Virus record (IMG/VR): IMGVR_UViG_3300048121_000536 | Coordinates: 1-33,716 of that record | Direction: 5' to 3' (one strand) | DNA: 33,716 nt | Source: a virus | Part shown: positions 19,523 through 33,525 of the stretch, one piece after another | Layout of the letters: each line of letters starts with the position of its first letter | Position numbering within the stretch: the first letter of the stretch is position 1 | Translations under genes and position numbers: made by a program | The notes under the pieces: generated by a model | The model's database searches: none | The model's input: the letters and a program-made list of their open reading frames with translations, nothing else | Told to the model about the DNA's origin: nothing

Positions 19523-19558
19523 TGAATTTAATACCCCTTTATGAATTTAATAGGGTAT
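19523..19558 (+). repeat. AATTTAATAGGG motif, two copies
   Basis: TGAATTTAATACCCC begins at 19523 and TGAATTTAATAGGGTAT at 19542, 19 bases apart. The second copy runs into a TATATTTG -7 element at 19556-19563, so here the motif lies where the -33 contact would be expected. Confidence 0.55.
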
Positions 19559-19563
19559 ATTTG
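19556..19563 (+). promoter_or_regulatory. -7 element fused to AATTTAATAGGG motif
   Basis: TATATTTG fits TAnnTTTG exactly, yet no TTTG lies 17-21 bases upstream; that place is taken by the dispersed motif. A regulator bound there could substitute for the -33 contact. Transcription would start near 19568 and hit the terminator at 19614-19645. Confidence 0.4.
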
Positions 19564-19645
19564 TAGTGTTCAGGTTATCCCTGTTTTCATTTGTTTCATT
19601 TTGTTTCGTAAAGGTGGTAGCTTTTTTAGGTTGCCACTTTTTTTT
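19564..19645 (+). ncRNA. Candidate small RNA upstream of the 19659 gene
   Basis: A short segment of about 75 bases lies between the -7 element at 19556-19563 and a strong hairpin with eight T at 19614-19645. It holds no ATG-started frame of any length, and shows a direct repeat (CATTTGTTT, CATTTTGTTT). It could be a regulatory RNA, or merely the leader of a failed or attenuated transcript in front of the nuclease gene. Confidence 0.3.
19614..19645 (+). terminator. Intrinsic terminator
   Basis: GTGGTAGC at 19614-19621 pairs with GTTGCCAC at 19630-19637 (two wobble pairs) around an eight-base T-rich loop, followed by eight T at 19638-19645. It closes the late structural and lysis region and separates it from the DNA metabolism region. 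Confidence 0.8.
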
Positions 19646-19658: not shown

Positions 19659-20021
19659 ATGGACATAAATCAGAAAGGTTGTTTTGCAGAATATAAGTTC
19701 GCCACTATGGCAATAGAAAATGGATTTAACGTATCTATGCCACTATTAGACGCCTCCGCATACGACTGCATTTTAGAAAAGAATAACAAGTTCTTTAAGC
19801 TTCAGGTAAAATACTTTATTGGCGCAGGAAACCACACAACAATAAGGCATGGTAATAAAAGTAGAGGTGGTTACTCTTTGGAAGAGGTTGACTATTTTGC
19901 TGTATGGAACGAATCGTGTAAAGGGTTTTTTATATTAAAGAATACTGGGCAGTTGGGATATGCCTTATCTAAAGAAGGTAAGTACAAAGATAACTTCAAT
20001 AATTTCGATATTATTTTGTAA
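19659..20021 (+). CDS. PD-(D/E)XK nuclease (PDDEXK_5-like), 120 aa
   Basis: The opening QKGCFAEYKFATMAIENGF, followed by SMPLLDASAYDCILE and FKLQVKY, is the standard layout of short PD-(D/E)XK endonucleases: Glu11 in the first helix, Asp36 and the Q-V-K strand at 49-51. Members cut branched or foreign DNA; in phages they are commonly resolvase-like. It is the first gene of the DNA metabolism block, behind the shared GTATATTAGCTA box. The promoter of the ERF gene begins in its last codons. Confidence 0.7.
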   Translation: MDINQKGCFAEYKFATMAIENGFNVSMPLLDASAYDCILEKNNKFFKLQVKYFIGAGNHTTIRHGNKSRGGYSLEEVDYFAVWNESCKGFFILKNTGQLGYALSKEGKYKDNFNNFDIIL

Positions 20022-20045
20022 TGTCAGTTGGAATTTATATATTTG
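20015..20045 (+). promoter_or_regulatory. Consensus promoter for ERF gene (leaderless start)
   Basis: TTTG at 20015-20018, exactly 19 bases, then TATATTTG at 20038-20045: a perfect fit to the Bacteroidota consensus. The ATG of the ERF gene is at 20050, where transcription itself should begin, so the mRNA would be leaderless. The same two boxes with the same 19-base spacer recur at 24830-24860 and 24952-24982. Confidence 0.8.
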
Positions 20046-20049
20046 CCCT

Positions 20050-20601
20050 ATGAATATATATGAAAAACTGGTAGACATTCAGGGGAGACTGAAAGCACCA
20101 AAAAATCAATATAACAGTTTCGGTAAATATAAATACCGTAATTGTGAGGATATACTGGAATCAGTAAAACCTCTACTCGTAGAACATAAAGTTGTCTTGA
20201 CTATTTCTGATAAGGTCATAGAATTGGACAACGGACTTTCTTTTGTTGAATCAACAGCACAGTTCAAAGACATTGAAGGTGTTATTGAGGTTTCAGCACA
20301 AGCAGGTATTGACCCTAATAGAAAGGGTATGGATGTGGCGCAATGCTTTGGTAGTAGTTCATCTTACGCTAGAAAGTACGCCCTAAATGGTTTATTCTTA
20401 ATAGATGATACAAAGGATGCCGATTCGACTAACAAACATGAGACTAAATCAAATGCTGTTGCAGATGATATGAGTTGGTTGCCAGATAAAGGTAGCAAGT
20501 TTGATAACGCCAAGAAAGCGTTAAACTCAGGGAAAACAATGCAAGACATTAGAAAGCATTATAAAGTAAGTAAAAAAGTAGAACAATTATTAAATACATA
20601 A
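20050..20601 (+). CDS. erf: ERF-family ssDNA annealing protein, 183 aa
   Basis: Single-strand annealing recombinase of the ERF family, which pairs complementary strands during phage replication. The signature is clear: YEKLVDIQGRLKAPKNQYNS, FGKYKYRNCEDILESVKPLL at ~24-43, then GIDPNRKGMDVAQCFGSSSS and YARKYALNGLFLIDD at ~106-120. The ATG at 20050 directly follows the promoter and the family begins at this point, so a longer frame starting at 19960 is not used. It would work with the RecE-like exonuclease at 25423 and the SSB-like protein just downstream. Confidence 0.85.
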   Translation: MNIYEKLVDIQGRLKAPKNQYNSFGKYKYRNCEDILESVKPLLVEHKVVLTISDKVIELDNGLSFVESTAQFKDIEGVIEVSAQAGIDPNRKGMDVAQCFGSSSSYARKYALNGLFLIDDTKDADSTNKHETKSNAVADDMSWLPDKGSKFDNAKKALNSGKTMQDIRKHYKVSKKVEQLLNT

Positions 20602-20604
20602 ATT

Positions 20605-20868
20605 ATGAATGAAAAGAAGTATGTTGGCACAGGTCGACAAGCACCAAACGGAATGGAGATTGTAAACATCTCTATCGCAGAATCCAAAGTTAAAGACTTT
20701 TGGAGTGAATATAACGGAGAGCGTTATTTAAGATTAGGAGTCTCTAAAAAGAAAGAGGCAGACCAGTATGGTAAAACTCATAGTGTTTACATTGACGAGT
20801 GGCAACCATCTTCGGACAACAAACCAAAACCAGAACCAGTTAAAGTCGATGATGACTTTCCGTTCTAA
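20605..20868 (+). CDS. SSB-like protein with acidic C-terminal tip, 87 aa
   Basis: Small protein with a beta-rich body (GTGRQAPNGMEIVNISIAES, YNGERYLRLGVSKKKEADQYGK) and a Pro/Lys linker ending in DDDFPF. That terminus imitates the acidic tip of bacterial single-strand DNA binding proteins, through which SSB recruits replication and repair enzymes. Three bases after the ERF gene. It is shorter than a full SSB (typically 110 or more residues), so it may be a trimmed OB-fold or an SSB mimic. A terminator follows. Confidence 0.65.
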   Translation: MNEKKYVGTGRQAPNGMEIVNISIAESKVKDFWSEYNGERYLRLGVSKKKEADQYGKTHSVYIDEWQPSSDNKPKPEPVKVDDDFPF

Positions 20869-20877
20869 ATAAACATA

Positions 20878-20903
20878 GGGGGGTGTAAAAACCCCCTTTT
20901 TTT
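20878..20903 (+). terminator. Intrinsic terminator after SSB-like gene
   Basis: GGGGGG at 20878-20883 pairs with CCCCC at 20892-20896 around TGTAAAAA, followed by seven T at 20897-20903. It ends the ERF-SSB transcript that starts at 20050. Confidence 0.8.
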
Positions 20904-20907
20904 AGCT

Positions 20908-21186
20908 ATGAAAACTAATTACATAAAAGTAGATATGGAAGGTTTAGGCAAATTAAACTTTACCGAAAAGGCAGTATTCTCATATATAAAATCCTTATCA
21001 AAGGACAAGGGATATTGTTTTTCGACAAATAAGCATCTGTGTGAGGTTTTCTCTTTAACAGACAGGACTATATATAGAATCTTAAAGAAGCTTGAGGAAA
21101 ACGCCTGTATTAGACGTGAAACGAAGAGTTTAGGTTATGACGGTAAGCAACGTAGAATATACATAAATCCTCAATACAAGCATTAA
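20908..21186 (+). CDS. Winged-helix DNA-binding protein, 92 aa
   Basis: The body FTEKAVFSYIKSLSKDKG, FSTNKHLCEVFSLTDRTIYR and ILKKLEENACIRRE is a clear helix-turn-helix (about 38-62) with a wing from ~66 to 87. It resembles the HTH_36/RepA-N-terminal type that reads replication or promoter sites. It starts only five bases after the terminator T-run, so it needs its own promoter or read-through. Its stop is followed immediately by the palindromic ACATGTTAT cluster at 21184-21295, making that cluster a natural candidate target. Regulator or replication initiator. Confidence 0.7.
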   Translation: MKTNYIKVDMEGLGKLNFTEKAVFSYIKSLSKDKGYCFSTNKHLCEVFSLTDRTIYRILKKLEENACIRRETKSLGYDGKQRRIYINPQYKH

Positions 21187-21295
21187 CATGTTACGAAACG
21201 ATACATGTTATATAAAGAATTATAATATGATACATATTATAAATATTTAATACTCATGTTATAATACGATACATGTTATAATACGTAACATGTTA
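21184..21295. repeat. ACATGTTAT repeat cluster B (six copies)
   Basis: Cores lie at 21184-21193 (taacatgtta, a perfect palindrome), 21202-21210, 21231-21239 (tacatatta), 21253-21261, 21270-21278 and 21286-21295 (taacatgtta again). Several share the longer context ATACGATACATGTTATA with cluster A at 485-596. The stretch 21187-21335 has no gene and leads into the primase-helicase gene. Likely operator sites, or an origin with AT-rich DNA-unwinding character. Confidence 0.65.
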
Positions 21296-21335
21296 TATAA
21301 TTGTAAAAAAAACAAAATAAAAACGAGACTACCAA

Positions 21336-23081
21336 ATGTTTGTACAAGAATTTTTAGATTTAGGCGTAGAACCGAAGGGAAATAGTGAGGAACAAAAGGT
21401 TAAATGCCCTAAATGCAAGTCTTTAGGTAAGGAGAACTGGAAAGACACTTGCTTGTCTATCAACATATTGATGGGCGTATATAATTGCCACAAATGCGGA
21501 TATAAAGGAACAGTAAAAAAAGCAAAAGAAATGCAACAATACACGAAGCCAATGAAACAATACATAAAACCATCTAAAACAAATATGAAGAGAATCTCTG
21601 ATAGGGGGCGCAAATTCCTTAACGGAAGGGGCATAACCGATGAGGTTATTGAAAGAAATAATATTGTATCATCATCTGATGACAGAAACATTTTCTTTCC
21701 TTATATCAAAGATAAAGAACTTGTAAACTACAAGAAGCGAGGTTTAGACGGTAAATTCTTTGCTCAAGCTAAAGATGCAAAACCAATCATATACAACTAC
21801 GATGGTGTTAAAGGTCAACCAAAGATTGTTATATGCGAAGGAGAGATTGATTCTTTGAGTTGGGAAGTTATCGGAATTTCTTATCACACCTCTGTTAATA
21901 TGGGTGCGCCCAATGTTGGAGATAAGAGTATTGACAAGAAACTTGAGTGTCTAACAACCTGTTATGACGTTTTTGACGAGGCATCTACTATCTATATTGC
22001 TACCGATAATGATGACAATGGTAGGAACTTGCAACAAGAGTTAATTAGACGTTTTGGCGCAGAGAAGTGTAAAATAGTCGATTTAAGACCGTTTAAGGAC
22101 GCTAATGAGGTATTAGTCAAGGAAGGTGTAGAAAGTCTCAGAAACCGCCTTAAAACGGCTGAAGCACCTAAAGTAGAGGGTATCTTTGACGTTGATGATG
22201 TTGTTGACTCTATGATGGATGGTTTTGAGAACGGTCAAGAAAGAGGTTCAAGCACATACATTCCTCACGTAGATAAGGCTTGGACTTGGAGAATGGGAGA
22301 GGTTAATATATGGACTGGGTATCAGAATGAAGGAAAGTCTTTGTTATTGAATCAACTCGCTACTGTTAAGGCGTTTCATGATGGTTGGAAGTTTGGAGTG
22401 TTCAGTCCTGAGAATATGCCGATGAAAGACTTCTTTAATGACATTGTAGAGATGTATATTGGTAAGAGTGCTGACCCATACTACAAAAATAATCAGATGA
22501 CAAAGGATGAGTATTATGAGGCAATTGAGTTTGTAAAGAAGCACTTCTTCTTAATATACCCAAGAAAGAACTTTAACTTGGACTCTATATTTGATAGGGC
22601 AAAGTTTCTTGTTAAGACAAAAGGCATACGTTCTCTTATCATTGACCCATACAATACGGTACAGCACAAGATGTACAAGGGTGAGCGTGAGGATTTGTAT
22701 ATAAGTCGATTCATGAGTGAGTTAAAGAGATTTGCCATTGAGAATCATATATCTGTAAATTTAGTGGCGCATCAAGTTACACCACAGAAAGATGAAAGTG
22801 GCAGGTATTACAAGCCTGATGTGAACAGAATAAAGGGTGGCGGTACGTTTTCAGACAAGGCAGATAATGTGATGTTTGTATGGAGACCTAATCGTGCTTT
22901 GGATTTCTCAGATACAAGTGTTATCTTTGGTTCACAAAAGATTAAGAAACAAAAGCTAGTTGGTATTCCACAGGATGTGGAGGGTATCAATTTTAACATA
23001 AGAGAACAAAGGTATTACTTTGATGGGTACACTCCCTTTAAAGATATAGATGTTCAAAGATGCGGAAAAAAGCAAGAGTAG
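21336..23081 (+). CDS. Primase-helicase (T7 gp4-like), 581 aa
   Basis: Replicative enzyme that lays primers and unwinds DNA. Order of parts: zinc ribbon with CPKC at 24-27 and CHKC at 51-54; TOPRIM fold with ICEGEID at 166-172 and TDNDDNG at 223-229; then a DnaB-type RecA core with Walker A GYQNEGKS at 328-335, Walker B LIIDPYN at 434-440 and AHQ at 478-480. The length agrees with bifunctional phage enzymes. It begins after the ACATGTTAT cluster B and overlaps the VRR-NUC gene by 22 bases. No separate DNA polymerase is visible in the window, so host polymerase is probably used. Confidence 0.9.
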   Translation: MFVQEFLDLGVEPKGNSEEQKVKCPKCKSLGKENWKDTCLSINILMGVYNCHKCGYKGTVKKAKEMQQYTKPMKQYIKPSKTNMKRISDRGRKFLNGRGITDEVIERNNIVSSSDDRNIFFPYIKDKELVNYKKRGLDGKFFAQAKDAKPIIYNYDGVKGQPKIVICEGEIDSLSWEVIGISYHTSVNMGAPNVGDKSIDKKLECLTTCYDVFDEASTIYIATDNDDNGRNLQQELIRRFGAEKCKIVDLRPFKDANEVLVKEGVESLRNRLKTAEAPKVEGIFDVDDVVDSMMDGFENGQERGSSTYIPHVDKAWTWRMGEVNIWTGYQNEGKSLLLNQLATVKAFHDGWKFGVFSPENMPMKDFFNDIVEMYIGKSADPYYKNNQMTKDEYYEAIEFVKKHFFLIYPRKNFNLDSIFDRAKFLVKTKGIRSLIIDPYNTVQHKMYKGEREDLYISRFMSELKRFAIENHISVNLVAHQVTPQKDESGRYYKPDVNRIKGGGTFSDKADNVMFVWRPNRALDFSDTSVIFGSQKIKKQKLVGIPQDVEGINFNIREQRYYFDGYTPFKDIDVQRCGKKQE

Positions 23082-23377
23082 ATGCAAACCAAAAAGAAGT
23101 AGTAAAACAATTAAGAGATTTAGGCGTTTCAGTCTTACATACCCATCAGTTGGGTAGAGGTGCGCCAGACTTAGTACTAGGTTACAGGAATAGTAATTAT
23201 ATGATTGAGTTGAAAGACGGAAATAAAACAAAGAGTCAACAGAAGTTAACACCTGATGAGGTAAAATTTCAAGAGAGTTGGAATGGTAATTACGCTGTTT
23301 GCAATTCGATTGAGCAAATATTAACTTTAATAGATTATGTTGACGAAGGAAGAGTTGTTAGAAAAACTAGCAAATAA
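23060..23377 (+). CDS. VRR-NUC nuclease, 105 aa
   Basis: The VRR-NUC domain is a PD-(D/E)XK variant found in junction-resolving and structure-specific nucleases. Visible here are GRGAPDLVLGYR at 32-43 (Asp37), YMIELKDG at 47-54 (Glu50, Lys52) and SQQKLTPDEVKFQ at 59-71, the usual order. It shares 22 bases with the primase-helicase end and 41 with the sigma factor start, so the three are translationally coupled. A Holliday-junction or flap-removal role in replication is probable. Confidence 0.8.
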   Translation: MRKKARVDANQKEVVKQLRDLGVSVLHTHQLGRGAPDLVLGYRNSNYMIELKDGNKTKSQQKLTPDEVKFQESWNGNYAVCNSIEQILTLIDYVDEGRVVRKTSK

Positions 23378-23876
23378 ATATGATGACTGGTATAATATGG
23401 CTATGTCTTTTGACATTTCAAGTGAACAGGCAAAGGAGCTTGTTCAGGAGATGTTTGTTAGGATTTTTGACTACGTTAAAGAGCCTCAAAAGATTATGTA
23501 TAATGATACTGAGGTCAACACCTTTTATATTTACATTACGTTAAGAAATTTATATTATGCGAACACACACACAAGTTGTAAGAAAAATCCAATCGTATTT
23601 TCGACAGATAAGATTACGGATGATAATTTTGAGGGAATGTATGAAGATAGCTTGGATTCTATCGAAGAAAAGCAAAAAGAAGAAGCGTTATTTAAGAGAG
23701 TTGAAACTCTGGTTGAAGATTGGTATTGGTACGACAAAGGTATCTTTAATCTTTACTATCATAGGGGTATGTCTATGAGGGATATTGCCAGAGAAACAAA
23801 GATAAGTTTAAGTAGTATATTTAATACATTGAAGAATGCCAAAGAAGTCATCAGAAAAGAAATCACAAGAAATTAA
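23337..23876 (+). CDS. Sigma-70-family RNA polymerase sigma factor, 179 aa
   Basis: Residues ~10-75 have the helical region-2 layout (ISSEQAKELVQEMFVRIFDY, then NTFYIYITLRNLYYANTH). Residues ~140-172 form a region-4 helix-turn-helix (YYHRGMSMRDIARETKISLS, SIFNTLKNAKEVIRKEI). ECF sigma factors have this length. It would direct host RNA polymerase to a set of phage promoters. The linker between regions is long and acidic (about 92-125). It overlaps both neighbours. Whether it replaces or modifies the host sigma is unknown. Confidence 0.7.
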   Translation: MLTKEELLEKLANKYDDWYNMAMSFDISSEQAKELVQEMFVRIFDYVKEPQKIMYNDTEVNTFYIYITLRNLYYANTHTSCKKNPIVFSTDKITDDNFEGMYEDSLDSIEEKQKEEALFKRVETLVEDWYWYDKGIFNLYYHRGMSMRDIARETKISLSSIFNTLKNAKEVIRKEITRN

Positions 23877-24222
23877 GTCAACAGGACTTGGAGACACCGT
23901 AGAGAAGGTTTTTCGCAAGACTGGCATTGATAAGGTTGCTAAAGCTGTATTGGGAGACGATTGCGGTTGCGACAAGAGACAGGAACTATTAAATGACCTC
24001 TTCCCTTACAAGAAGTACAATGCCCCTACTGATGAAGAATTGGATATTATAGAGTGGTTGTTTACCGATGCTAAGAATACAATTAGCGGAAGCATGGTAA
24101 AAGAAGTGTACTCTGTTTACAACAGGATATTCAATGATAAAATAAGACCTACAAATTGCAGCAGTTGCTTCAAGCCTGTAAAGCAGAAACTTCTAAAGAT
24201 ACACAATGAGTTTAATAAGTAA
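23836..24222 (+). CDS. Conserved hypothetical with CxC and CxxC, 128 aa
   Basis: The opening is Ser/Lys-rich, then GLGDTVEKVFRKTGIDKVAK and DDCGCDKRQELLNDLFPYKK, a pattern I recognise from Bacteroidota phages. Near the end lies CSSCFKPVKQKLLK. The four cysteines (CGC and CSSC) suggest metal binding, and the body is helical. It overlaps the sigma factor by 41 bases and the downstream nuclease by 17. A partner or regulator of its neighbours is possible; not identified. Confidence 0.65.
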   Translation: MPKKSSEKKSQEIKSTGLGDTVEKVFRKTGIDKVAKAVLGDDCGCDKRQELLNDLFPYKKYNAPTDEELDIIEWLFTDAKNTISGSMVKEVYSVYNRIFNDKIRPTNCSSCFKPVKQKLLKIHNEFNK

Positions 24223-24664
24223 TACCTTTAAGGTAGATTTAAGCAGGGGTGAACAGATAGAACACATGGTTCTTGATATGATAAGACCTAAGTATCCTAA
24301 AGCCTACAAAATGGAGGGATACTTTAAGGATTACGATATATATGTTCCTGAAATAAATAAAAGCATAGAGGTTAAGTCGGATGAGAAATCAAAGTACACT
24401 AATAACATTGTTGTTGAGGTTGAATTCAATGGTAAACCTTCGGCACTATCAACATCCAAAGCTGATTATTGGGTTTGGCACGATGGTTATTATTTTACTT
24501 GGTTCACTATTGACCTTATAAAAAAGTGTATTAAAGACAATATGATACCGCTAAGAACCTTTACTAGCAAGGGGGATACTAAATCTAAAAAGGCTTATTT
24601 AGTTAAAAAAGATGTGTTGTATAAATATGCTATAAAACAAAGTGAAGTCAATATATTACTTTAG
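24206..24664 (+). CDS. PD-(D/E)XK endonuclease-like protein, 152 aa
   Basis: Asp44 in DYDIYVPE, followed 11 residues on by E-V-K at 55-57 (SIEVKSD), is the PD-(D/E)XK catalytic pair. A conserved-looking middle (NNIVVEVEFNGKPSALSTSK) and ADYWVWHDG follow. The fold is used by resolvases and restriction enzymes; context with primase, VRR-NUC and ERF suggests processing of replication intermediates. It overlaps the upstream gene and ends two bases before the next start. Confidence 0.7.
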   Translation: MSLISNTFKVDLSRGEQIEHMVLDMIRPKYPKAYKMEGYFKDYDIYVPEINKSIEVKSDEKSKYTNNIVVEVEFNGKPSALSTSKADYWVWHDGYYFTWFTIDLIKKCIKDNMIPLRTFTSKGDTKSKKAYLVKKDVLYKYAIKQSEVNILL

Positions 24665-24665
24665 T

Positions 24666-24821
24666 ATGCCACTAATTAAACCAAAGAAATACGAGAAGCA
24701 GAAGGATTTTGTAGTGCGTTGCATAGGCAATGCTAAGATGGCTTCTGAATACAAAGATACCGACAAGAGAATGGCGGTATGTTACACTATATGGAAAGAT
24801 AACTTTAATCCAAAAAAGTAG
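24666..24821 (+). CDS. Conserved small protein, 51 aa
   Basis: MPLIKPKKYEKQKDFVVRC opens a pattern seen in many phages: RC, then M-x-E near the middle, KRMAVCYTIWKD near the end. The Cys pair (RC and VCY) and the final Trp are conserved in that group. Function unknown; it is often found near protease or portal genes, here at the end of the replication operon. The start context ATTACTTTAGTATG is the same as at 12571. Confidence 0.65.
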   Translation: MPLIKPKKYEKQKDFVVRCIGNAKMASEYKDTDKRMAVCYTIWKDNFNPKK

Positions 24822-24829
24822 TAAAAATA

Positions 24830-24860
24830 TTTGCAGGTATAAAAAATAGTTTTATATTTG
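24830..24860 (+). promoter_or_regulatory. Consensus promoter for the 24861 transcript
   Basis: TTTG at 24830-24833 and TATATTTG at 24853-24860 with a 19-base spacer, identical in layout to the ERF and 25000 promoters. Start of transcription is expected near 24865, which is two bases past the A of the only ATG here (24863), so the short ATG frame would not be translated from this start. Confidence 0.75.
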
Positions 24861-24943
24861 CTATGTCTTTTACGGACACAATAAGTTTTTTCGGTTTACA
24901 TTTTTATTGTTAAAAGGGGGTCTTAATTGACCCTCTTTTTTTT
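24861..24943 (+). ncRNA. Candidate small RNA of about 80 nt
   Basis: A perfect promoter at 24830-24860 is followed after about 55 bases by a perfect intrinsic terminator (24916-24943). The only frame is 16 codons (from 24863), and its ATG lies at or before the expected start of transcription. Inside, ACAATAA at 24878-24884 pairs with TTATTGT at 24904-24910, giving a stem-loop with a 19-base loop before the terminator hairpin. The segment fits a regulatory small RNA placed between the nuclease block and the recombination block. Confidence 0.5.
24916..24943 (+). terminator. Intrinsic terminator
   Basis: GGGGGTC at 24916-24922 pairs with GACCCTC at 24929-24935 (one wobble) around TTAATT, followed by eight T. 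It is the same design as the terminator after the tail tube gene. Confidence 0.85.
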
Positions 24944-24951
24944 GTTTATAT

Positions 24952-24982
24952 TTTGTTAATTAAAATATAGTTTGTATATTTG
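24952..24982 (+). promoter_or_regulatory. Consensus promoter for the 25000 operon
   Basis: TTTG at 24952-24955, a 19-base spacer and TATATTTG at 24975-24982. Transcription should start near 24987, leaving a 13-base leader before the ATG at 25000. It lies directly after the terminator at 24916-24943, so the operon 25000-27972 is independently transcribed. Confidence 0.75.
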
Positions 24983-24999
24983 TTTCAAATAATAAGCAA

Positions 25000-25194
25000 A
25001 TGGACAAGTTGTTAAGATTTATATTATCCCCCTTAAACTTACTGAAGTTAGTATTTGTAATCATTCTAGTGTTCATATTCTGGATGCTTGAGAGTACCCT
25101 AATGATACTACACTATGTTCTTGACACACCCTTGAGATGGACTTTAAATAAGATAGAGAAGTTAATTAAGTTACTAATAAAACAATTGAAATGA
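25000..25194 (+). CDS. Small membrane protein, 64 aa
   Basis: One strong membrane span at about residues 16-36 (LKLVFVIILVFIFWMLESTL), an N-terminal basic/hydrophobic opening, and a Lys-rich amphipathic end (KIEKLIKLLIKQLK). First gene of an independently promoted operon. An inner-membrane peptide acting on the host early in infection, or an exclusion or replication-anchor protein, would suit; there is no motif to decide. Overlaps the next start by four bases. Confidence 0.6.
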   Translation: MDKLLRFILSPLNLLKLVFVIILVFIFWMLESTLMILHYVLDTPLRWTLNKIEKLIKLLIKQLK

Positions 25195-25430
25195 GTAAAA
25201 CAAATGAGTTATTTCAGAAGATGAGAGAGCGAGGTTCTCTTAACTCTGAGCAGATAGATAGAATGGAAAGAAGCTACCAAGAAGAAATGGAACTTGCCGA
25301 GTGGAAGTATTCAGAAGAAGGTAAGAAGAACAGAGAAGAAATTAGATACACGTTAAACAAAGTGTTTGAGGAATTTCATCCAATGCAATTTATAGCACCA
25401 GAACTAGCTAAAAGAAGAATAGATGAGTAA
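25191..25430 (+). CDS. Hypothetical helical protein, 79 aa
   Basis: Highly charged and helical (LFQKMRERGSLNSEQIDRME, EEGKKNREEIRYTLNKVFEE), with no Cys and no hydrophobic span. It overlaps both neighbours by a few bases, so it is expressed with the exonuclease that follows. A partner of that enzyme is possible; no family recognised. Confidence 0.55.
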   Translation: MSKTNELFQKMRERGSLNSEQIDRMERSYQEEMELAEWKYSEEGKKNREEIRYTLNKVFEEFHPMQFIAPELAKRRIDE

Positions 25431-26211
25431 TCAGATAGTTACACTAGACGGAAAGTTTTGGGATAAAGATTCTATCTTAAAACAAATGGACAATGACGAG
25501 TTCTACTATGAGTACTTAGGTAAGAACGCCTTGAGTAGTAGTAGTGTGAAACTCTTAAACAAATCACCTAAAGCATACGCTAAGTCGTTGAGGTTTGCTA
25601 ACAAGCGAACAAGTGCCATGACAACTGGATGGCTTTTACACTTGGCGGTATTTGAGCCTGAGAAGTTTGGACACCTAAACTGGGTGGATGCCAGCACAAG
25701 AAATACTAAAATATATAAGGAGGCATTTGCCGACAATCCAATGACGTTCCTCAGGAAAGAGTACGAAGAAACAATGAGGCTATCGGATGCTGTTTATAAT
25801 AACAATGACGCTGCTCAGTTAATCGAAGGATTGGAATATGAGAAACCAGCTATCGGAAACATTATGTTCCTTCCTTTTAGAGGTAAAGCTGATGCGCTCA
25901 ATGTTGGTAGGGCTATTGTTGACCTTAAAACAACAACAGGTCTTTCAGAAGGTAGCTTTCCTTACAACTGCAAGAAGTATGGTTACGCAAGTCAAGTATT
26001 TATTTATTGCAATTTATTTGGCATAGATTATAAAGATTTTGTATTTTTATGCGTAGATAAGGAAACTAAGGACATCGGTATCTATAATGTGAGCGAAGAG
26101 TTTTATTATGAAGGAGAACGATTAGTTGATAATGCGGTTAGCGTGTTTAACACTTGGTTTTCTGATGAGCCAAAGAATATAGACCAATACACTATAACTG
26201 GAACTTTATGA
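25423..26211 (+). CDS. RecE-like PD-(D/E)XK exonuclease (DUF3799-like), 262 aa
   Basis: 5'-3' exonuclease pattern that prepares single-stranded tails for an annealing protein. Visible motifs: LSSSSVKLLNKSPKAY at ~37-52, GWLLHLAVFEPEKF at 69-82 (His73), FRGKADAL at 152-159 (Asp157), IVDLKTT at 165-171 (Asp167, Lys169) and YGYASQVFIYC at 186-196 (Gln191). That is the usual order for RecE/PDDEXK-like phage nucleases. It starts eight bases inside the upstream gene. It is a natural partner for the ERF protein at 20050 despite being 5 kb away. Confidence 0.8.
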   Translation: MSNQIVTLDGKFWDKDSILKQMDNDEFYYEYLGKNALSSSSVKLLNKSPKAYAKSLRFANKRTSAMTTGWLLHLAVFEPEKFGHLNWVDASTRNTKIYKEAFADNPMTFLRKEYEETMRLSDAVYNNNDAAQLIEGLEYEKPAIGNIMFLPFRGKADALNVGRAIVDLKTTTGLSEGSFPYNCKKYGYASQVFIYCNLFGIDYKDFVFLCVDKETKDIGIYNVSEEFYYEGERLVDNAVSVFNTWFSDEPKNIDQYTITGTL

Positions 26212-26342
26212 GAAAGAAGAAGCTAACACAAGAACAGCGCATAACCGCTTTAGAGAAGGCACTAACCAATGTTTACATAATGGTTCAGGCTTTGATTAAA
26301 GAGGATGTAAATAAAGATAAAGATGGGGTATCAACAAGCTAA
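26208..26342 (+). CDS. Small helical protein, 44 aa
   Basis: ATG at 26208 overlaps the exonuclease stop (ATGA). MRKKKLTQEQRITALEKALT followed by a Val/Ile/Leu helix and a Lys/Asp-rich tail forms a short coiled coil. Its stop lies 20 bases inside the next gene. Short N-terminally basic coiled-coil proteins of this kind are common in phage operons; function unknown. Confidence 0.5.
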   Translation: MRKKKLTQEQRITALEKALTNVYIMVQALIKEDVNKDKDGVSTS

Positions 26343-26523
26343 AGAAGAGTGCCGAGAGGATGTACTGCTCTCACTAAGAGAGGGAATGTTACTTCTACAA
26401 GAAGTTAAGTTCTTAATAGAGTACTTTAAAGATACAGAGCAGTATGAGTGCATACAAGGTGCTATGGAAGCTTATAATGAATATAAAAAAGAATTAGATG
26501 GAATTGGAGATAGAATATCTTAA
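26323..26523 (+). CDS. Hypothetical protein, 66 aa
   Basis: Glu/Leu-rich helical protein with two cysteines (KEECREDVLLSLREGMLLLQ, YECIQGAMEAYNEYKKELDG). It overlaps the upstream gene by 20 bases and the DnaA-like gene by 26. Unrecognised; likely a small helper of the replication neighbours. Confidence 0.5.
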   Translation: MGYQQAKEECREDVLLSLREGMLLLQEVKFLIEYFKDTEQYECIQGAMEAYNEYKKELDGIGDRIS

Positions 26524-26974
26524 AAGATTAGTAGAAGAAAAGACTGGTGTTAACATGGGTGTTAAGACCAGAAAGAGAGAGGTTGTTTTTGCCAGAAGAA
26601 TGTATTACAAATTGTTTAGGGAGTTTTACAAGAAAACGTCTCTTCAATCAATAGGACAGACATTACCCTTAAAACAGAATCATGCTACTGTACTGCATCA
26701 GATAAATCAATTTGAAATAGACTACGCCCAAGACAGGTTGTTTAGGAAGAAGTTTGATTCAATACGTAATGAATTTTGCGGTCTTGCAGGAGAGCCAGAG
26801 ATTGATTTTGAGGAAGAGAACATGAGGCTTAAACTAGAGGTGTCTGACTTAAAGAATGACATTGAGAAGCTGAAAGATGATTTGAAGGAAGCTATATCTA
26901 ATAAAATACAACCGAGAAACCAACAGGCAAAGGTTTATTATGCCTCTGAAGGAATAAGCGGTTCAATATACTAA
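26498..26974 (+). CDS. DnaA-domain-IV-like DNA-binding protein, 158 aa
   Basis: Residues ~22-75 reproduce the DNA-binding domain IV of DnaA: TRKREVVFARRMYYKLFREF, SLQSIGQTL, then NHATVLHQINQF, close to the HTTVLHA signature that contacts DnaA boxes. The ATPase domain is absent. A coiled coil (~105-137, Glu/Lys/Leu-rich) follows and a Gly/Ser-rich end. It could bring replication proteins to the phage origin or titrate host DnaA sites. It overlaps the upstream gene by 26 bases. Confidence 0.7.
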   Translation: MELEIEYLKRLVEEKTGVNMGVKTRKREVVFARRMYYKLFREFYKKTSLQSIGQTLPLKQNHATVLHQINQFEIDYAQDRLFRKKFDSIRNEFCGLAGEPEIDFEEENMRLKLEVSDLKNDIEKLKDDLKEAISNKIQPRNQQAKVYYASEGISGSIY

Positions 26975-26980
26975 TAAGAC

Positions 26981-27130
26981 ATGAAACTAAGTAAGAAAAC
27001 ATTTGTAAGGGCGTATGCCTACTTTAAAGACCAATTAGCTTTGGCACAACAAAAAGAGGATAACGATGATATGATTATGTATTACAATCAACAGATTGAC
27101 ACATTGATGACTAGGTATTACTCACAATGA
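26981..27130 (+). CDS. Hypothetical small protein, 49 aa
   Basis: Helical, Gln/Tyr/Lys-rich (KLSKKTFVRAYAYFKDQLAL). The TGA overlaps the ATG of the PAPS reductase-like gene (ATGA), so translation is coupled. No motif recognised. Confidence 0.55.
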   Translation: MKLSKKTFVRAYAYFKDQLALAQQKEDNDDMIMYYNQQIDTLMTRYYSQ

Positions 27131-27972
27131 AAACAGTTAATAGTTTGTCGGGTGGTAAAACATCAAGCTACATAGCAGCTAATTATCCTGCTGACTATGA
27201 TGTGTTTGCGTTAGTAAGAACTGATGACAAAAACTGTATGTTCCCTGATAAAAAGTTAAGACAAGAAGTAGAGGATAGAATACAAGCACCATTCATAGGT
27301 ACTTTAGAAGATGATGTGATTATACATACTATGCTTGATTTAGAGCAGTATATAGGTAGAAAGATTACTTGGGTAACAGGAAAGACTTTTGATGAAACCA
27401 TAATAACCACAAAAAAAGGCACAAAATATCTACCTAACAAAGTAGCGAGATACTGTACAACAGAACTTAAAACAATGCCGATACTGCATTGGATATATAA
27501 AGAAGTGGGTAAGCCTGTTATAATGAGGTTTGGATATAGGGCGAATGAAACTAGTAGAGCAAAGACAATGATAACCAAAACAGATGATGATGGTTTTACA
27601 AACGTTAAGGCTACTTTTAAGAAAAATAAAAATGGCAGAAACTCTTGGGATACATACAGGTATTGTAAGCCTGAATTTCCTTTAATAGATGACAATATAT
27701 ATAAAGATAACATTGAGCAGTATTGGAAAGATAAAGCTGTTAGATTTGCTTTTATGAATAATTGTGTAGGATGTCATTGGAGAAGCCCTTTATTATTAAA
27801 GAAGATGAGCGATATGCACCCTAACAAAATGCAATGGTTTGCTGACCAAGAAACAAATAAGTCAAAATGGAGAAGTGATGTAATGTATAAAGATATTATG
27901 AAGTGGAACGCACAAGCAGAACTATTTGATGATGACTTTAACGAATGTGATAGTGGATATTGCGGTCTGTAA
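27127..27972 (+). CDS. PAPS reductase-like PP-loop protein, 281 aa
   Basis: An adenine-nucleotide alpha-hydrolase with the PP-loop SLSGGKTS at residues 6-13, which binds ATP or a nucleotide sulfate. Further cysteine motifs: RYCTTELK at 108-115, FGYRANE at 135-141, CVGC at 213-216 and CDSGYC at 274-279. The paired cysteines could hold an iron-sulfur cluster, as in DndC-type and tRNA-thiolating relatives. Family members include sulfonucleotide reductases and DNA or tRNA sulfur-modifying enzymes; which reaction applies here is unknown. It lies between the DnaA-like gene and the terminase. Confidence 0.75.
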   Translation: MKTVNSLSGGKTSSYIAANYPADYDVFALVRTDDKNCMFPDKKLRQEVEDRIQAPFIGTLEDDVIIHTMLDLEQYIGRKITWVTGKTFDETIITTKKGTKYLPNKVARYCTTELKTMPILHWIYKEVGKPVIMRFGYRANETSRAKTMITKTDDDGFTNVKATFKKNKNGRNSWDTYRYCKPEFPLIDDNIYKDNIEQYWKDKAVRFAFMNNCVGCHWRSPLLLKKMSDMHPNKMQWFADQETNKSKWRSDVMYKDIMKWNAQAELFDDDFNECDSGYCGL

Positions 27973-28015
27973 ATCAGGCACTTAAACACTTCGGTATGAA
28001 CTTTATTATTTAAAT

Positions 28016-28465
28016 ATGCCAAGACCAAAGAAGAGAAGTCTAATATCAGACGAGAAGAAAGCTGAATTAGGAATACCGATTAAGCCAAAGCCAGAACCAA
28101 AGGAGACCAAACCACACGTTCCATATTCAGATGGGCGTAGAAACAACGGTGCGATAAAAGGAGTGTCCAGAGGGCAGGGGCGAAAGCCTAAAGCCAAAGA
28201 AGCAGACATAAAGAACTTTGCGCTAGGTTCAATGAAGAGAGCCTTTGGAAGCGAGAAGAAAGCTTGGGAGGCACTTGCTGAGATGAGTAAGGATTCCTTT
28301 GCACACTTACGCTTACTGTGGGAATACAAGTATGGTAAACCAAAAGAGCAGAAGGATATTAACGTGAAGCAAGAGGTAAACATTCCTGTGATATCTTTCT
28401 TGCAACCAGAAGATACTATTGATATTGAAGCAACAGAGATAAAGGATGAGGAAAGTAAATCTTAA
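28016..28465 (+). CDS. Terminase small subunit candidate, 149 aa
   Basis: DNA-recognition partner of the packaging motor, judged by position (20-base overlap with the large subunit) and composition. A very basic N-terminal tail (MPRPKKRSLISDEKKAELG, KPKPEPKETKPH) is followed by KGVSRGQGRKPKAKEADIKN and a helical body (KKAWEALAEMSKDSFAHLRL). The C terminus is acidic. The usual small-subunit helix-turn-helix is not obvious, so the call rests on context. The start has the TTTATTATTTAAATATG context. Confidence 0.65.
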   Translation: MPRPKKRSLISDEKKAELGIPIKPKPEPKETKPHVPYSDGRRNNGAIKGVSRGQGRKPKAKEADIKNFALGSMKRAFGSEKKAWEALAEMSKDSFAHLRLLWEYKYGKPKEQKDINVKQEVNIPVISFLQPEDTIDIEATEIKDEESKS

Positions 28466-29663
28466 TCCCAAGTACAATCCTCTGTTCAGAGACTCAAGTA
28501 GGTACTTTGTTATTACAGGCGGTAGGGGAAGTGGTAAGTCTTTTGGCGTAAATACATTCTTAGTATTGCTTACTTACGAAACTGGACACCGTATACTGTT
28601 TACTCGATATACAATGACTTCGGCATCTATGTCTATTATACCAGAGTTCTTGGAGAAGCTTGAACTGATGGGTATAGCAGAGAACTTTACCGTTACAAAG
28701 AATGAGATTATAAATAACCTAACAGGAAGCAGCATTCTGTTTAGTGGTATTAAGACTGCGAGTGGAGACCAAACAGCCAAGCTCAAGTCTATTCAAGGCG
28801 TTACGACATTTGTCTTGGATGAAGCAGAGGAACTTACAGACGAGGAATCGTTTGAAAAGATAGACTACTCTGTTCGTGCTACTGGGAAGCAGAATCGCTG
28901 TATCCTCATTCTAAACCCCACAACTAAACAGCATTGGATATACGAGAGGTTCTTTGAGAATAGAGGTATTATAGACGGTTACAATGGCGTTAAAGAGAAC
29001 GTGAGCTACATACACACAACCTACCTTGATAACAAGCAACACTTATCTCCATCTTTTGTAGAGCAAGTGGAGGTTATGCAAAAGCGTAGACCAGAGAAGT
29101 ATAAGCACCAGATATTAGGAGGTTGGCTTGAGAAAGCAGAAGGAGTTGTATTTACTCATTGGGAGGTTGGCGATTTCAATAACGAGTATGATACGATATT
29201 TGGACTTGATTTCGGATTTTCGGTAGATGCTTCAGTATTAACTGAAATTGCGGTAGATAAGATTAGAAAGACTATCTGGATAAAAGAACACTTCTACAAG
29301 TCTGGCTTGTCTACATCTAATATATTTGAGATGTGTAGGAGATTTGCTGGCACTAACTTAATAGTATGCGACAATAGTGAGCCTCGACTCATATCAGAGT
29401 TAAAGACTAAAGGACTTAAAAACATTACGCCAACTATTAAAAAGAAAGGTAGCATCTTATCAGGCATCGCTCTTATGCAAGACTACAATATAATAATCGA
29501 TAAGGACTCTGTGAATTTAATACGAGAGTTTAACAATTATGCTTGGAAGCTGAAGGGTAGCATACCAAGAGATTCTTGGAATCATGGCATTGACGCAAGT
29601 CGCTATGCAATTCAATACGCCCTTGAACGTACTGTGCCTAAAGGAATGTATGTGCTGCGTTAA
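28446..29663 (+). CDS. terL: Terminase large subunit (PBSX/Terminase_3 type), 405 aa
   Basis: ATP-driven packaging motor with nuclease. Walker A GGRGSGKS at 25-32, Walker B FVLDEAEE at 122-129, coupling-type LILNPTT at 154-160. The RNase-H-like nuclease has GLDFG at 253-257 (Asp255), VCDNSEP at 307-313 (Asp309) and HGIDASRY at 380-387 (Asp383). Length suits the PBSX family. It lies far from the capsid and portal genes, next to the recombination block, and its last 26 bases are overlapped by a minus-strand frame. Confidence 0.9.
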   Translation: MRKVNLNPKYNPLFRDSSRYFVITGGRGSGKSFGVNTFLVLLTYETGHRILFTRYTMTSASMSIIPEFLEKLELMGIAENFTVTKNEIINNLTGSSILFSGIKTASGDQTAKLKSIQGVTTFVLDEAEELTDEESFEKIDYSVRATGKQNRCILILNPTTKQHWIYERFFENRGIIDGYNGVKENVSYIHTTYLDNKQHLSPSFVEQVEVMQKRRPEKYKHQILGGWLEKAEGVVFTHWEVGDFNNEYDTIFGLDFGFSVDASVLTEIAVDKIRKTIWIKEHFYKSGLSTSNIFEMCRRFAGTNLIVCDNSEPRLISELKTKGLKNITPTIKKKGSILSGIALMQDYNIIIDKDSVNLIREFNNYAWKLKGSIPRDSWNHGIDASRYAIQYALERTVPKGMYVLR

Positions 29664-29733
29664 CCATAAGGTATACTGCATACCAAATCATTATAGTTAC
29701 CACACATATAATTGTCCACGCTATTCTTTTCAT
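29638..29733 (-). CDS. Small membrane peptide, 31 aa
   Basis: An open frame read leftward. ATG at 29733 overlaps the stop of the 38-residue frame upstream (ATGA), and the TAG lies inside the end of terL. One membrane span fills it (WTIICVVTIMIWYAVYLMV), with a basic start MKRIA. Third gene of a short minus-strand operon. Overlap coupling and a plain membrane span are the support. Confidence 0.45.
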   Translation of the reverse strand: MKRIAWTIICVVTIMIWYAVYLMVNAAHTFL

Positions 29734-29846
29734 TCTTGCTCTATTATAGGTTCAACTGATATTATACCTTGCCTGTCAAACTTAACCACAACTTCATTAC
29801 AGCCATTGTCTAGACAAGAACGTAGGTACTGATTAAACTGCCTCAT
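29730..29846 (-). CDS. Hypothetical small protein, 38 aa
   Basis: Minus-strand frame starting 14 bases inside the end of the dATP/dGTP hydrolase-like gene and ending in an ATGA overlap with the next peptide. MRQFNQYLRSCLDNGCNEVV is followed by a short strand and Glu-rich end. Two cysteines. Not recognised; overlaps indicate it belongs to the same transcript as its neighbours. Confidence 0.5.
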   Translation of the reverse strand: MRQFNQYLRSCLDNGCNEVVVKFDRQGIISVEPIIEQE

Positions 29847-30246
29847 TGTCATTCTCTATCTCTTTTTGTAAGTTAGCTAACGCTCTCCAAGCTACTTTAG
29901 CGGAGTGTCTGATGCCATCGGTATCAATTGTACCTGCTTCAAGTAAGTGCCGAGTAAGAGCGTCTAATTCGTCTCCTGACTTGCTTCTATCCCAAGCTAA
30001 CGGTTTATCTGGATTGTGTTGTTGTTGTCCAACGTAAGAACACTTTGCGATTTCTCGAATTGCATCGGGAAAATAATTTAATACACCTGTAAAGATTGGC
30101 GTCTCCTTCCTTGTGAATTTAATAGGGGTTTCTTCCTCTGGCAATTCAATACCCCCCTGTGGCAATTCAATACCCTGTTGTTCTTGGGGTACGATTTCGA
30201 TATCCCCTTCTTCGTTCCATTTATACATATATTTGCCTTTAAACAT
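29833..30246 (-). CDS. dATP/dGTP diphosphohydrolase N-terminal-domain protein (PF18909-like), 137 aa
   Basis: Residues ~55-130 show the pattern of this nucleotide-hydrolase domain: VLNYFPDAIREIAKCSYVG, QQHNPDKPLAWDRSKSGDEL, then LTRHLLEAGTIDTDGIRHSA and KVAWRALANL. It would adjust the dNTP pool. The N-terminal 50 residues are extra and repetitive (GIELP at 25-29 and at 32-36, ETPI twice) and coincide with three copies of the AATTYAATAGGG DNA motif. It is transcribed leftward from a divergent region; a -7 box TATCTTTG ends seven bases before the ATG, giving a nearly leaderless start. Confidence 0.7.
   Translation of the reverse strand: MFKGKYMYKWNEEGDIEIVPQEQQGIELPQGGIELPEEETPIKFTRKETPIFTGVLNYFPDAIREIAKCSYVGQQQHNPDKPLAWDRSKSGDELDALTRHLLEAGTIDTDGIRHSAKVAWRALANLQKEIENDNEAV
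30114..30177 (+). repeat. AATTYAATAGGG motif inside a coding region, three copies
   Basis: Copies start at 30114 (TGAATTTAATAGGGG), 30141 (GCAATTCAATACCCC) and 30162 (GCAATTCAATACCC). A degenerate copy lies at 30074-30084. Orientation is the same as in the non-coding copies although the gene runs on the other strand. The duplicated peptide GIELP in the protein is produced by this DNA repeat. Confidence 0.6.
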
Positions 30247-30253
30247 GATACTA

Positions 30254-30261
30254 CAAAGATA
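30254..30261 (-). promoter_or_regulatory. -7 element of the minus-strand operon
   Basis: CAAAGATA on the plus strand reads TATCTTTG leftward, a perfect -7 box seven bases from the ATG at 30246. No perfect TTTG lies at the expected distance; the region there belongs to the 11-bp repeats of the divergent promoter, so both directions may be controlled by the same bound protein. Confidence 0.55.
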
Positions 30262-30279
30262 GTAAATATTTTACAATTA

Positions 30280-30325
30280 CTTAACATTGGCTTAACATTG
30301 GGTAACATTAGGCTTCGTATGTTTG
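30280..30325 (+). promoter_or_regulatory. Promoter with 11-bp phased repeats, copy 1
   Basis: CTTAACATTGG at 30280-30290, again at 30291-30301, then GTAACATTAGG at 30302-30312, spaced exactly 11 bp, one turn of the helix. TTG at 30298-30300 and TATGTTTG at 30318-30325 (17 bases apart) form the promoter; the second repeat contains the -33 contact. It drives 30350 onward with a leader of about 20 bases. Phased direct repeats suggest binding of a protein on one face of the DNA. Confidence 0.65.
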
Positions 30326-30349
30326 CATCGAACATAAAAATAAATACAA

Positions 30350-30859
30350 ATGGAAATACAAATTGAGTTCGGTGGATTTTATAACTACCATGATGATTAC
30401 ATAGTAGATAGATGCGACACGTTAAGCATTGATACTGATGATGTAAATTGGCATAAGACGTTTGTTCAATATAGTGTAGCTTGGGTGCATAGGTTTACGG
30501 ATATGACAGGAATAGAGTTGTTTTTTATTGGATTAGACAGTCCACGATATTACAATTATCGCACCGATAAGATTATGGCTAAGGTATTGCCTGATGTTGT
30601 TGAGCACCTGATGACATATATAAATGATGAATTTAAGGAATGGGCAAATCCACAGTTACAAAGTAGTTCTGGATTTCACTCATTCTATAATGGCGTTGAT
30701 GACTTAATTGAACGAAGTAAAGATGATGATGATGACAAGGCTATATTATTAGGTATGGTTTGCAATTACTTAATTGAAGTAATGGAGGTAAACCAAGATG
30801 TTTACGAATTAGAATATGACATAATAGGATTAACAGATAAAACAACAAATAATGAATAA
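30350..30859 (+). CDS. Conserved hypothetical, 169 aa
   Basis: FGGFYNYHDDYIVDRCDTLS opens the protein. The middle has YSVAWVHRFTDMTGIELFF, then GLDSPRYYNYRTDKIMAKVL. Acidic with an Asp-rich stretch (RSKDDDDDKAILL). The F-GFY-x-HDD and D-PR-YNY-TD pattern appears in several phage and plasmid proteins of unknown function; I cannot name one. First gene behind the phased-repeat promoter, thus probably early-expressed and possibly a host-takeover or antidefence protein (inference). It overlaps the next gene by eight bases. Confidence 0.6.
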   Translation: MEIQIEFGGFYNYHDDYIVDRCDTLSIDTDDVNWHKTFVQYSVAWVHRFTDMTGIELFFIGLDSPRYYNYRTDKIMAKVLPDVVEHLMTYINDEFKEWANPQLQSSSGFHSFYNGVDDLIERSKDDDDDKAILLGMVCNYLIEVMEVNQDVYELEYDIIGLTDKTTNNE

Positions 30860-31181
30860 CGAAGTATTAACAGTATTAGAAAATTGCAAAGATTATATTG
30901 AGCAAATAAAAGACGATGCACTTGCAAAGTATTTAGTTAAGGAAATTGAAAGGGTTATGTTAAATGAAATGCAAGGGTACGAAGAATACACCCCTTCATT
31001 TGCACAGGTAATAAAATTCTACAAAGAAACCACATTTCAGCAGCATAATGATTTTTTAAATATCATATACGATAAATTAACATTCTTTGATGCAAATAGC
31101 AATACAAGTTATGGGATAGATGTTAAGTACATAATTGGCACAAATGGCACATTCCACCAAATAAACATTAAGCAAGGATAA
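30852..31181 (+). CDS. Hypothetical protein, 109 aa
   Basis: Helical N-terminal half (LENCKDYIEQIKDDALAKYL, EIERVMLNEMQGYEE) and a mixed C-terminal half (KLTFFDANSNTSYGIDVKYI). It overlaps the previous gene, and its last codons carry the first of three tandem CAAGGATAATCATT repeats. Unrecognised. Confidence 0.55.
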   Translation: MNNEVLTVLENCKDYIEQIKDDALAKYLVKEIERVMLNEMQGYEEYTPSFAQVIKFYKETTFQQHNDFLNIIYDKLTFFDANSNTSYGIDVKYIIGTNGTFHQINIKQG

Positions 31182-31228
31182 TCATTAACGCAAGGATAAT
31201 CATTGCATACAAGGATAATCATTGCATA
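31173..31228 (+). repeat. Tandem repeat CAAGGATAATCATTGCATA, three copies
   Basis: Units at 31173-31190 (variant end ATTAACG), 31191-31209 and 31210-31228. The last two are identical 19-mers. The repeat starts inside the stop region of the previous gene and fills most of the gap to the 45-residue gene at 31254. Slippage duplication, possibly a protein-binding site. Confidence 0.75.
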
Positions 31229-31253
31229 TAAATTAACACATAAATAAATACAG

Positions 31254-31391
31254 ATGAAAATATATAAGTATTATGTTTGGGTTGGAGGAGTAGCTAATAT
31301 ATTCGATAATATGTTAGATGCTGAAATAGAAAAGATAAAATGGAATGAAAAAGGATATAATGATGTTAAAATAGAAATAAATGAAGGGTAA
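31254..31391 (+). CDS. Conserved small protein, 45 aa
   Basis: MKIYKYYVWVGGVANIFDNM, then a Glu/Lys helix and KGYNDVKIEINEG. The YYVWVGGV start and W-x-x-x-GYxDV end is a pattern shared by short proteins of many phages and mobile elements; function unknown. Its end overlaps the start of the zinc-ribbon peptide by 11 bases. Confidence 0.6.
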   Translation: MKIYKYYVWVGGVANIFDNMLDAEIEKIKWNEKGYNDVKIEINEG

Positions 31392-31527
31392 TGAATATAA
31401 AAAGGCTTGTCAAGCATGTTGGCACAATAACCATAAGGATAACTTCTTATGTGAAAATTGTGGATTTGATTTTGACTTACAAATAGATATAAATGATTTT
31501 GGTTTACCAGAAATAAAAATAAAATAA
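31381..31527 (+). CDS. Zinc-ribbon peptide, 48 aa
   Basis: Two knuckles, CQACW and CENCG, separated by about 15 residues (HNNHKDNFL), make a typical Cys4 zinc ribbon, followed by an acidic tail (DFDLQIDINDFG). It overlaps the previous gene by 11 bases. Such peptides bind nucleic acid or partner proteins; a transcription or translation modulator is possible. Confidence 0.55.
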   Translation: MKGNEYKKACQACWHNNHKDNFLCENCGFDFDLQIDINDFGLPEIKIK

Positions 31528-31530
31528 ATT

Positions 31531-31593
31531 ATGATTGAATTAGGTTGTGCAATGTTTTTTCTTGGCGTATTTTTATACTTGACAGGAAAGTAA
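31531..31593 (+). CDS. Possible 20-aa membrane peptide
   Basis: MIELGCAMFFLGVFLYLTGK is almost one membrane span. It starts three bases after the zinc-ribbon stop. Plausible as part of the string of small genes but too short to be certain. Confidence 0.35.
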   Translation: MIELGCAMFFLGVFLYLTGK

Positions 31594-31686
31594 ATTTAAT
31601 AGATGAGCAATTCAATATATGTGTAATTGCATAGGTATGTAATTTCATAGGTATGTAATTGCATAGGTAGTAATTGCATAGGGCAA
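31591..31686. repeat. Iteron-like array, six units of ~16 bp
   Basis: Units begin at 31591, 31607, 31623, 31639, 31655 and 31670. The centre reads GTAATTGCATAGGTAT, then GTAATTTCATAGGTAT, then GTAATTGCATAGGTA and GTAATTGCATAGGG; the first two units are diverged (AAATTTAATAGATGA, CAATTCAATATATGT) and link the array to the dispersed AATTYAATAGGG family. Regular spacing without distinct spacers rules out CRISPR and looks like origin iterons or a cooperative operator. Confidence 0.7.
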
Positions 31687-31915: not shown

Positions 31916-32059
31916 ATGAAAACAAACAACACAAATAACAAGACACAAAAAACAATTGAGACTTTTGCGCTAATCATTGCAACAATTTACAGCATTGCAA
32001 CTGTTATCGGGGTGGCGTATATTTTACTAAACATTGACAAAGTATCATTTAATTTCTAA
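31916..32059 (+). CDS. Small membrane protein, 47 aa
   Basis: Asn/Thr/Lys-rich N terminus, then one span (TFALIIATIYSIATVIGVAY ILL) and a short end. First gene behind the second phased-repeat promoter. No family recognised; an early host-membrane protein would suit. Confidence 0.5.
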   Translation: MKTNNTNNKTQKTIETFALIIATIYSIATVIGVAYILLNIDKVSFNF

Positions 32060-32063
32060 TAAC

Positions 32064-32159: not shown

Positions 32160-32171
32160 AACAAAACAAAA

Positions 32172-32993: not shown

Positions 32994-32999
32994 AAACAA

Positions 33000-33143: not shown

Positions 33144-33145
33144 TC

Positions 33146-33340: not shown

Positions 33341-33342
33341 TC

Positions 33343-33483: not shown

Positions 33484-33525
33484 AAATAGTAGTAGAAGTA
33501 GAGTTATTTTAGTTTGTTTTGTTTA

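Follow-up and report, generated by a model that had tools for sequence, protein, structure and literature searches.

Layout of the locus

The window analysed here is the entire virus record IMGVR_UViG_3300048121_000536 (33,716 bases), which belongs to a tailed phage whose genes are on the plus strand. Its terminase shares 54% identity with that of Nonlabens phage P12024L, and its other gene products include an ERF annealing protein, a primase/helicase, a sigma-like protein and an exonuclease. The promoter pattern TTTG-N18-22-TAnnTTTG was found 8 times in the window, against 1.6 expected. Because of the Nonlabens relative and of the TTTG/TAnnTTTG promoters, the sequence suggests a marine flavobacterium as the host. 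The sigma-factor-like protein (23337-23876) has 190 confirmed relatives in viral contigs, and might be what recognises the phage promoters. It also bears a weak similarity to Q-type antiterminators (phrog_79, E 4e-4; PF06530, E 0.005, below cut-off).

The region of interest, 24830-24943, lies between two conserved short ORFs and comprises the following features:

24666-24821, plus strand: left neighbour, a conserved 51-aa ORF (MPLIKPKK...)
24830-24860, plus strand: P1, the small-RNA promoter, TTTG-N19-TATATTTG (-33 and -7 boxes), assigned from its consensus match and from boxes kept across alleles
24864-24878, plus strand: 5' hairpin TGTC-TTTTACG-GACA, spanning -1 to +14 (register test, type A, p 0.0085)
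24865-24943, plus strand: predicted small RNA of ~79 nt, allele type A, delimited by the +1 rule and the terminator end, in a layout shared by 28 of 42 contigs
24878-24910, plus strand: weak long-loop stem ACAATAAG/TTTATTGT with the U-rich GTTTTTTCGGTTTACAT in its loop, seen in the fold and absent from other alleles
24912-24943, plus strand: intrinsic terminator with an 11-pair stem, a 6-nt loop and a U8 run, replaced by different GC hairpins in other alleles
24952-24982, plus strand: P2, a second promoter, TTTG-N19-TATATTTG, which is predicted to drive the operon starting at 25000 and bounds the slot; present with and without the small-RNA unit
25000-25194, plus strand: right neighbour, a conserved hydrophobic 64-aa ORF

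In a preliminary description based on the window alone, the promoter had been called perfect. This holds for the Bacteroidota sigma-A consensus, which P1 matches in full, but not for the E. coli sigma-70 consensus, of which it matches 9 of 12 positions. The start-site map of F. psychrophilum places the TAnnTTTG box at -12 to -5 (PMC9723704), which puts the predicted +1 at 24865. The terminator stem occupies 24912-24939, with the U8 run extending to 24943, and it ranked at the top of 12 terminator-like sites in 20001-33716. A promoter and a terminator at the spacing of the P1 unit occurred once in the window and in none of 500 dinucleotide shuffles of it. The two signals (P1 at 24830-24860, terminator end at ~24943) had earlier been described as enclosing about 80 bases. 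Folding of 24865-24947 gave z = -4.7, mostly because of the terminator; the portion upstream of it gave z of about -2.0 when taken alone. The internal ACAATAA/TTATTGT stem-loop reported earlier does exist and pairs 24878-24885 with 24903-24910, but it is weak and confined to the window's allele.

The predicted type A transcript contains neither ATG nor GTG, as expected from the earlier statement that no usable gene lies between promoter and terminator. The sole ATG of the window's allele has its G at the predicted +1 (24865), so that the AUG falls outside the transcript; the same description had rightly noted that this ATG precedes or coincides with the start. On the minus strand, no ORF of at least 40 aa was found over 24865-24943.

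The slot in related phages

Protein searches of viral contigs yielded 42 contigs, the window included, that carry the same neighbours, that is, the 51-aa ORF on the left and the 64-aa ORF on the right. The promoter-body-terminator arrangement was present in 28 of these (3 of them cut at the contig end), and contig L024 starts inside the cassette. The other 14 do without the unit, which counts against the small-RNA reading. The TTG and TAnnTTTG elements of P1 are kept in all alleles, with a divergent spacer. Nine body types were distinguished: A (n = 9, window included), C and C2 (5 each), B (3), G (2 variants), and D, E, F and H (1 each). Types B, C, C2 and H form one sequence family, described by model R1, which type E joins weakly (E = 4e-4); for A, D, F and G, no clear relation to that model was seen (E 0.19 or worse, or no match). 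Types E and F have their first letters in common and are then wholly different, terminator included. Among the empty slots, those of L172, L177 and L186 retain half a terminator, a trace of unit loss, and those of L180, L183 and L185 are clean, with no terminator. P2 follows the small-RNA unit and is retained where the unit has been lost.

Comparing alleles, we observed that the promoter and the neighbouring genes were 85-95% identical, against 52-56% for the body. Thus, L028 shares with the window 90% of the promoter, 52% of the body and 91% of the next ORF, and the corresponding values for L011 are 95%, 56% and 85%. In L022, a type A contig, the body is identical to that of the window despite flanks nearly as far removed, at 94% (64-aa ORF) and 92% (next ORF). 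In a tree of the 1.2 kb flank, the presence or absence of the unit required 7 changes, 5 of them forced by well-supported branches, and type A required at least 2-3 changes, the identical type A body being found in separate clades. As far as sequence comparison can tell, the RNA bodies are exchanged between relatives and have not drifted. The search in related phages, which the preliminary description had called for, showed that 28 of the 42 contigs keep the promoter/terminator frame around exchanged bodies, with a hairpin at +1 as a common feature. That description had been drawn from one allele, and contained neither the body exchange, nor the +1 hairpin, nor a second small-RNA gene at 19568-19645 (see below). 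The ORF at 24206-24664, to the left of the 51-aa ORF, showed 48-53% nucleotide identity in most relatives with flanks at 85-98%, and is itself a variable gene position.

Elsewhere in the viral collection, the type A sequence was not found. A search of 50,697 phage records for similar DNA gave only promoter-like snatches; when inspected, the matches H34, H40 and H35 turned out to be ordinary promoters in front of genes. Pattern matches in L115, L117, L118 and L237 were put down to chance in unrelated phages. No copy of the window's RNA or of model R1 was found in 395 sampled Bacteroidota genomes, a weak negative given that this search had no positive control. In Rfam, no family reached its gathering threshold, the best sub-threshold match scoring 19.8 against 58.7 bits. 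Two further loci show a promoter-short body-terminator-promoter layout. One, with a +1 hairpin, is L228:935-1035, from a distant relative in a Bacteroidetes MAG; the other lies near 3881-3925 on the minus strand of the viral contig L264, with a different gene to its left.

A hairpin at the predicted +1

In types A, B, C, C2, H, D and E, the start of the best local hairpin falls at -1 to +2, and so it does in X, an unrelated unit of other phages; types F and G have no hairpin in this register. Compared with shuffles, the register p values were 0.0085 for A, 0.0005 for C, 0.0085 for D, 0.009 for E and 0.005 for X. The combined p over A, C, D, E, F, G and X was about 1e-6, for a position range chosen after seeing the folds. 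Unit X overlaps an operator repeat, and the value computed by hand without X and F was about 4e-6. Six bodies (B, C, C2, H, D and L228, the last from another slot) have a 19-nt hairpin, in which 38 of 42 cells are paired, as compared with 39-52% in slid controls; three pairs show double (compensatory) changes among these six. Being closed by a hairpin at the 5' terminus and by a terminator at the 3' terminus is what would be expected of a long-lived RNA.

Proposed function and rival explanations

The promoter/terminator frame, the lack of a usable ORF, the exchange of the body and the +1 hairpin can be read from the sequence; transcription, stability, trans pairing and the target of the small RNA are what we infer. 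That the unit encodes a real RNA seems likely to us. Our preferred reading, with a probability of roughly 0.5, is that the 24830-24943 unit constitutes a gene in its own right, encoding a stable noncoding RNA of ~79 nt, which is exchangeable and most likely pairs in trans. In this scheme, P1 would be used by the host RNA polymerase and the intrinsic terminator would end the transcript. With its 5' terminus closed off by the +1 hairpin and its 3' terminus by the terminator, the RNA would present an accessible U-rich stretch in between. The slot itself would be an exchangeable cassette site, in which promoter and terminator function are kept and the RNA body is swapped or the unit lost. The RNA may then base-pair in trans with mRNAs outside its own phage, either of the host or of a rival phage.

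Base pairing is the commonest mode of small-RNA action. Granted that the RNA exists, we rather favour an action in trans, and pairing outside its own phage appears likeliest because an accessory or arms-race role would suit alleles that are swapped and lost, and because no own-phage target was detectable. Indeed, when the type A RNA was scanned for duplexes against both strands of its own phage, the best plus-strand value was -28.3 kcal/mol, which does not surpass the shuffles (mean -27.2, sd 2.9), and two very strong minus-strand matches were the small-RNA gene itself. The longest exact complement of type A in its own phage was 10 nt, and none lay at start regions or leaders. A cis role on the downstream operon is unlikely, since all contigs have P2 ahead of that operon, and those without P1 make do with it.

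The order of promoter, short transcript, terminator and operon is also that of a conditional terminator in the manner of lambda pR'-tR', in which P1 transcripts would abort and a phage antitermination factor would let transcription proceed into the exonuclease operon, leaving the RNA functionless. The weak resemblance of the sigma-like protein (23337-23876) to Q-type antiterminators speaks for it, as do the sequence-diverse leaders of lambdoid phages. Yet, in every allele a consensus promoter belonging to the operon itself, P2, comes immediately behind the terminator, and relatives devoid of P1 and terminator keep P2 only; a unit that is dispensable is not expected to control the operon, and we hold this explanation to be unlikely. 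Transcriptional interference or insulation, wherein the firing of P1 and the stop behind it would shield or repress P2 with the RNA as a by-product, would account for the terminator end at 24943 nearly abutting the start of P2 at 24952, 9 bases before its -33 box, and for the same layout occurring before the ERF operon and before an unrelated operon in L264. It would not, however, need a +1 hairpin in unrelated bodies or an exchange of the body, and empty slots without any terminator exist (the three clean ones above), which makes it quite unlikely. Alternatively, without pairing to mRNA, the RNA could serve as a decoy, either by binding to a protein of the host's defences or by imitating a guide or repeat. 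The fast replacement and loss of alleles and the variable ORF preceding the locus (24206-24664, 48-53% in most aligned relatives) would suit such an anti-defence role, but there is no Rfam family at gathering score and the structure points to no named decoy class, and we regard it as improbable.

The genome is AT-rich and sigma-70-type sites occur in the window at chance frequency (55 against 59 expected), such that promoter-like and terminator-like sequences might have met by accident without a transcript of consequence. The result of the 500 shuffles and the persistence of promoter boxes and terminator function while other sequence changes both argue otherwise, and chance appears distinctly improbable. 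As for a small mRNA encoding a short leaderless peptide, AUG does stand at +2 in types B, C and H, with the frames MFPKNIFFYMI, MFTNNIFF... and MFPENIFF, but the likeness of these frames follows from the hairpin, the C2 frame ends after 3 codons, and nothing comparable is present in D, E, F and G. The one AUG of the window's allele, its only candidate start, begins before +1. The 16-residue peptide, whose conservation the preliminary description had listed among the results that would refute the RNA gene, is not conserved, other alleles having unrelated frames or early stops in its place; neither an internal start codon in type A nor a frame common to the alleles was found in the small-ORF test. 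What is conserved at the 5' end is the hairpin, not codons. Of the refuting conditions listed in that description, those that sequence data could address did not count against the small-RNA reading. The peptide was thus rejected for the window's allele and most others, and is very improbable overall.

Relation to known systems

In the lambda pR'-tR' system, the 6S RNA leader consists of a promoter, a short RNA and an intrinsic terminator ahead of an operon. The window's unit has the same three elements before an operon, but here the operon has a promoter of its own, P2, behind the terminator and persists in relatives without the unit. The P4 CI RNA and P1 c4 RNA are immunity RNAs that pair with complementary stretches in transcripts of their own phage. 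They resemble the predicted RNA in being phage small RNAs of about 70-80 nt, and differ from it in that type A has no own-phage complement above 10 nt.

Phage-encoded small RNAs such as STnc6030 of BTP1, sas of P22 and lambda OOP have been reviewed (PMC12197685). The window's RNA would be, like these, a short noncoding phage transcript thought to base-pair, and unlike these it has a body that is exchanged between relatives. The named antisense phage RNAs overlap or oppose their target gene, whereas the window's RNA opposes no ORF of at least 40 aa. Within the phylum, Rfp18 of F. psychrophilum (PMC9723704) and the sRNAs of B. thetaiotaomicron (PMC7366714) are independent chromosomal RNAs for which a base-pairing role was proposed. 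They have the TAnnTTTG promoter in common with the unit described here, but theirs is a chromosomal setting, and no sequence related to the window's RNA or to model R1 was found in the 395 Bacteroidota genomes. In the open-access literature that was searched, we found no example of a small RNA from a Bacteroidota-infecting phage, and the earlier remark that such RNAs are little described, which they indeed appear to be, agrees with this. Overall, the earlier observation holds up, and the locus is best described as a probable small-RNA gene within a slot whose alleles are swapped.

A second candidate small-RNA gene

A scan for the same layout revealed a second unit at 19524-19645, with +1 at about 19568 and a terminator reaching 19645. 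The predicted RNA comprises, in order, a CAGG..CCUG hairpin, a conserved U/G-rich linker, CUGUUUUCAUUUGUUU, and the terminator. In over 30 related loci, this gene precedes either ERF itself or a nuclease-like ORF that has been inserted ahead of ERF, and it is more conserved than the 24830-24943 unit; both small RNAs are present in relatives such as the L031 contig. The promoter is overlapped by GAATTTAATACCCC/GAATTTAATAGGG repeats, which are also found at 135-215. Repeats GAATTYAATAGGG and CCCTATTRAATTC occur at promoter-like sequences both at 135-215 and at 19524-19555, and are probably operators of one phage regulator for the leftmost gene and the second small RNA.

A segment of this RNA, CUGUUUUCAUUU, is perfectly complementary to the start regions of both ORF 32172 (12 nt) and ORF 27127 (11 nt). 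A start-codon match as long as this was obtained in 1 of 60 shuffles, and ATGAAAACAG is kept in the ORF 32172 orthologue of two relatives. Own-genome complement tests of the second small RNA in other contigs were not significant by themselves. In Flavobacterium, translation initiates without Shine-Dalgarno sequences, preferably where the start region is unstructured and has adenines upstream (PMC6847099). Such start regions could be covered by a U-rich antisense RNA, a lead that fits the second small RNA. When start-region masking was tested on the slot alleles, p was 0.93 for type A, 0.003 for D and 0.02 for C2. As a general rule, masking was therefore discarded, being supported for the second RNA, D and C2 and not for A, B, C, E, F, G and H; as it is unsupported for type A, we do not claim it for the 24865-24943 RNA.

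Taking both loci together, we tentatively picture the slot as a site of allele exchange for small RNAs under fixed switches, set beside an operator-controlled second RNA that may mask start codons. A slot in which the RNA is swapped and the switches stay constant would show that phages trade regulatory RNAs like accessory genes. Close relatives carry the window's allele, another one or none, so that the question can be tested by comparing near-identical phages.

Two minor observations were made in the same part of the genome. The ERF promoter (20015-20045) has an extended -33 element, TGTCAGTTGG, and the same element stands upstream of ERF in many related phages. Further downstream, between ORF 20908-21186 and the primase start at 21336, iterated CATGTTATAATACGATACATGTTATA repeats occupy 21187-21320 and look like an origin iteron array.
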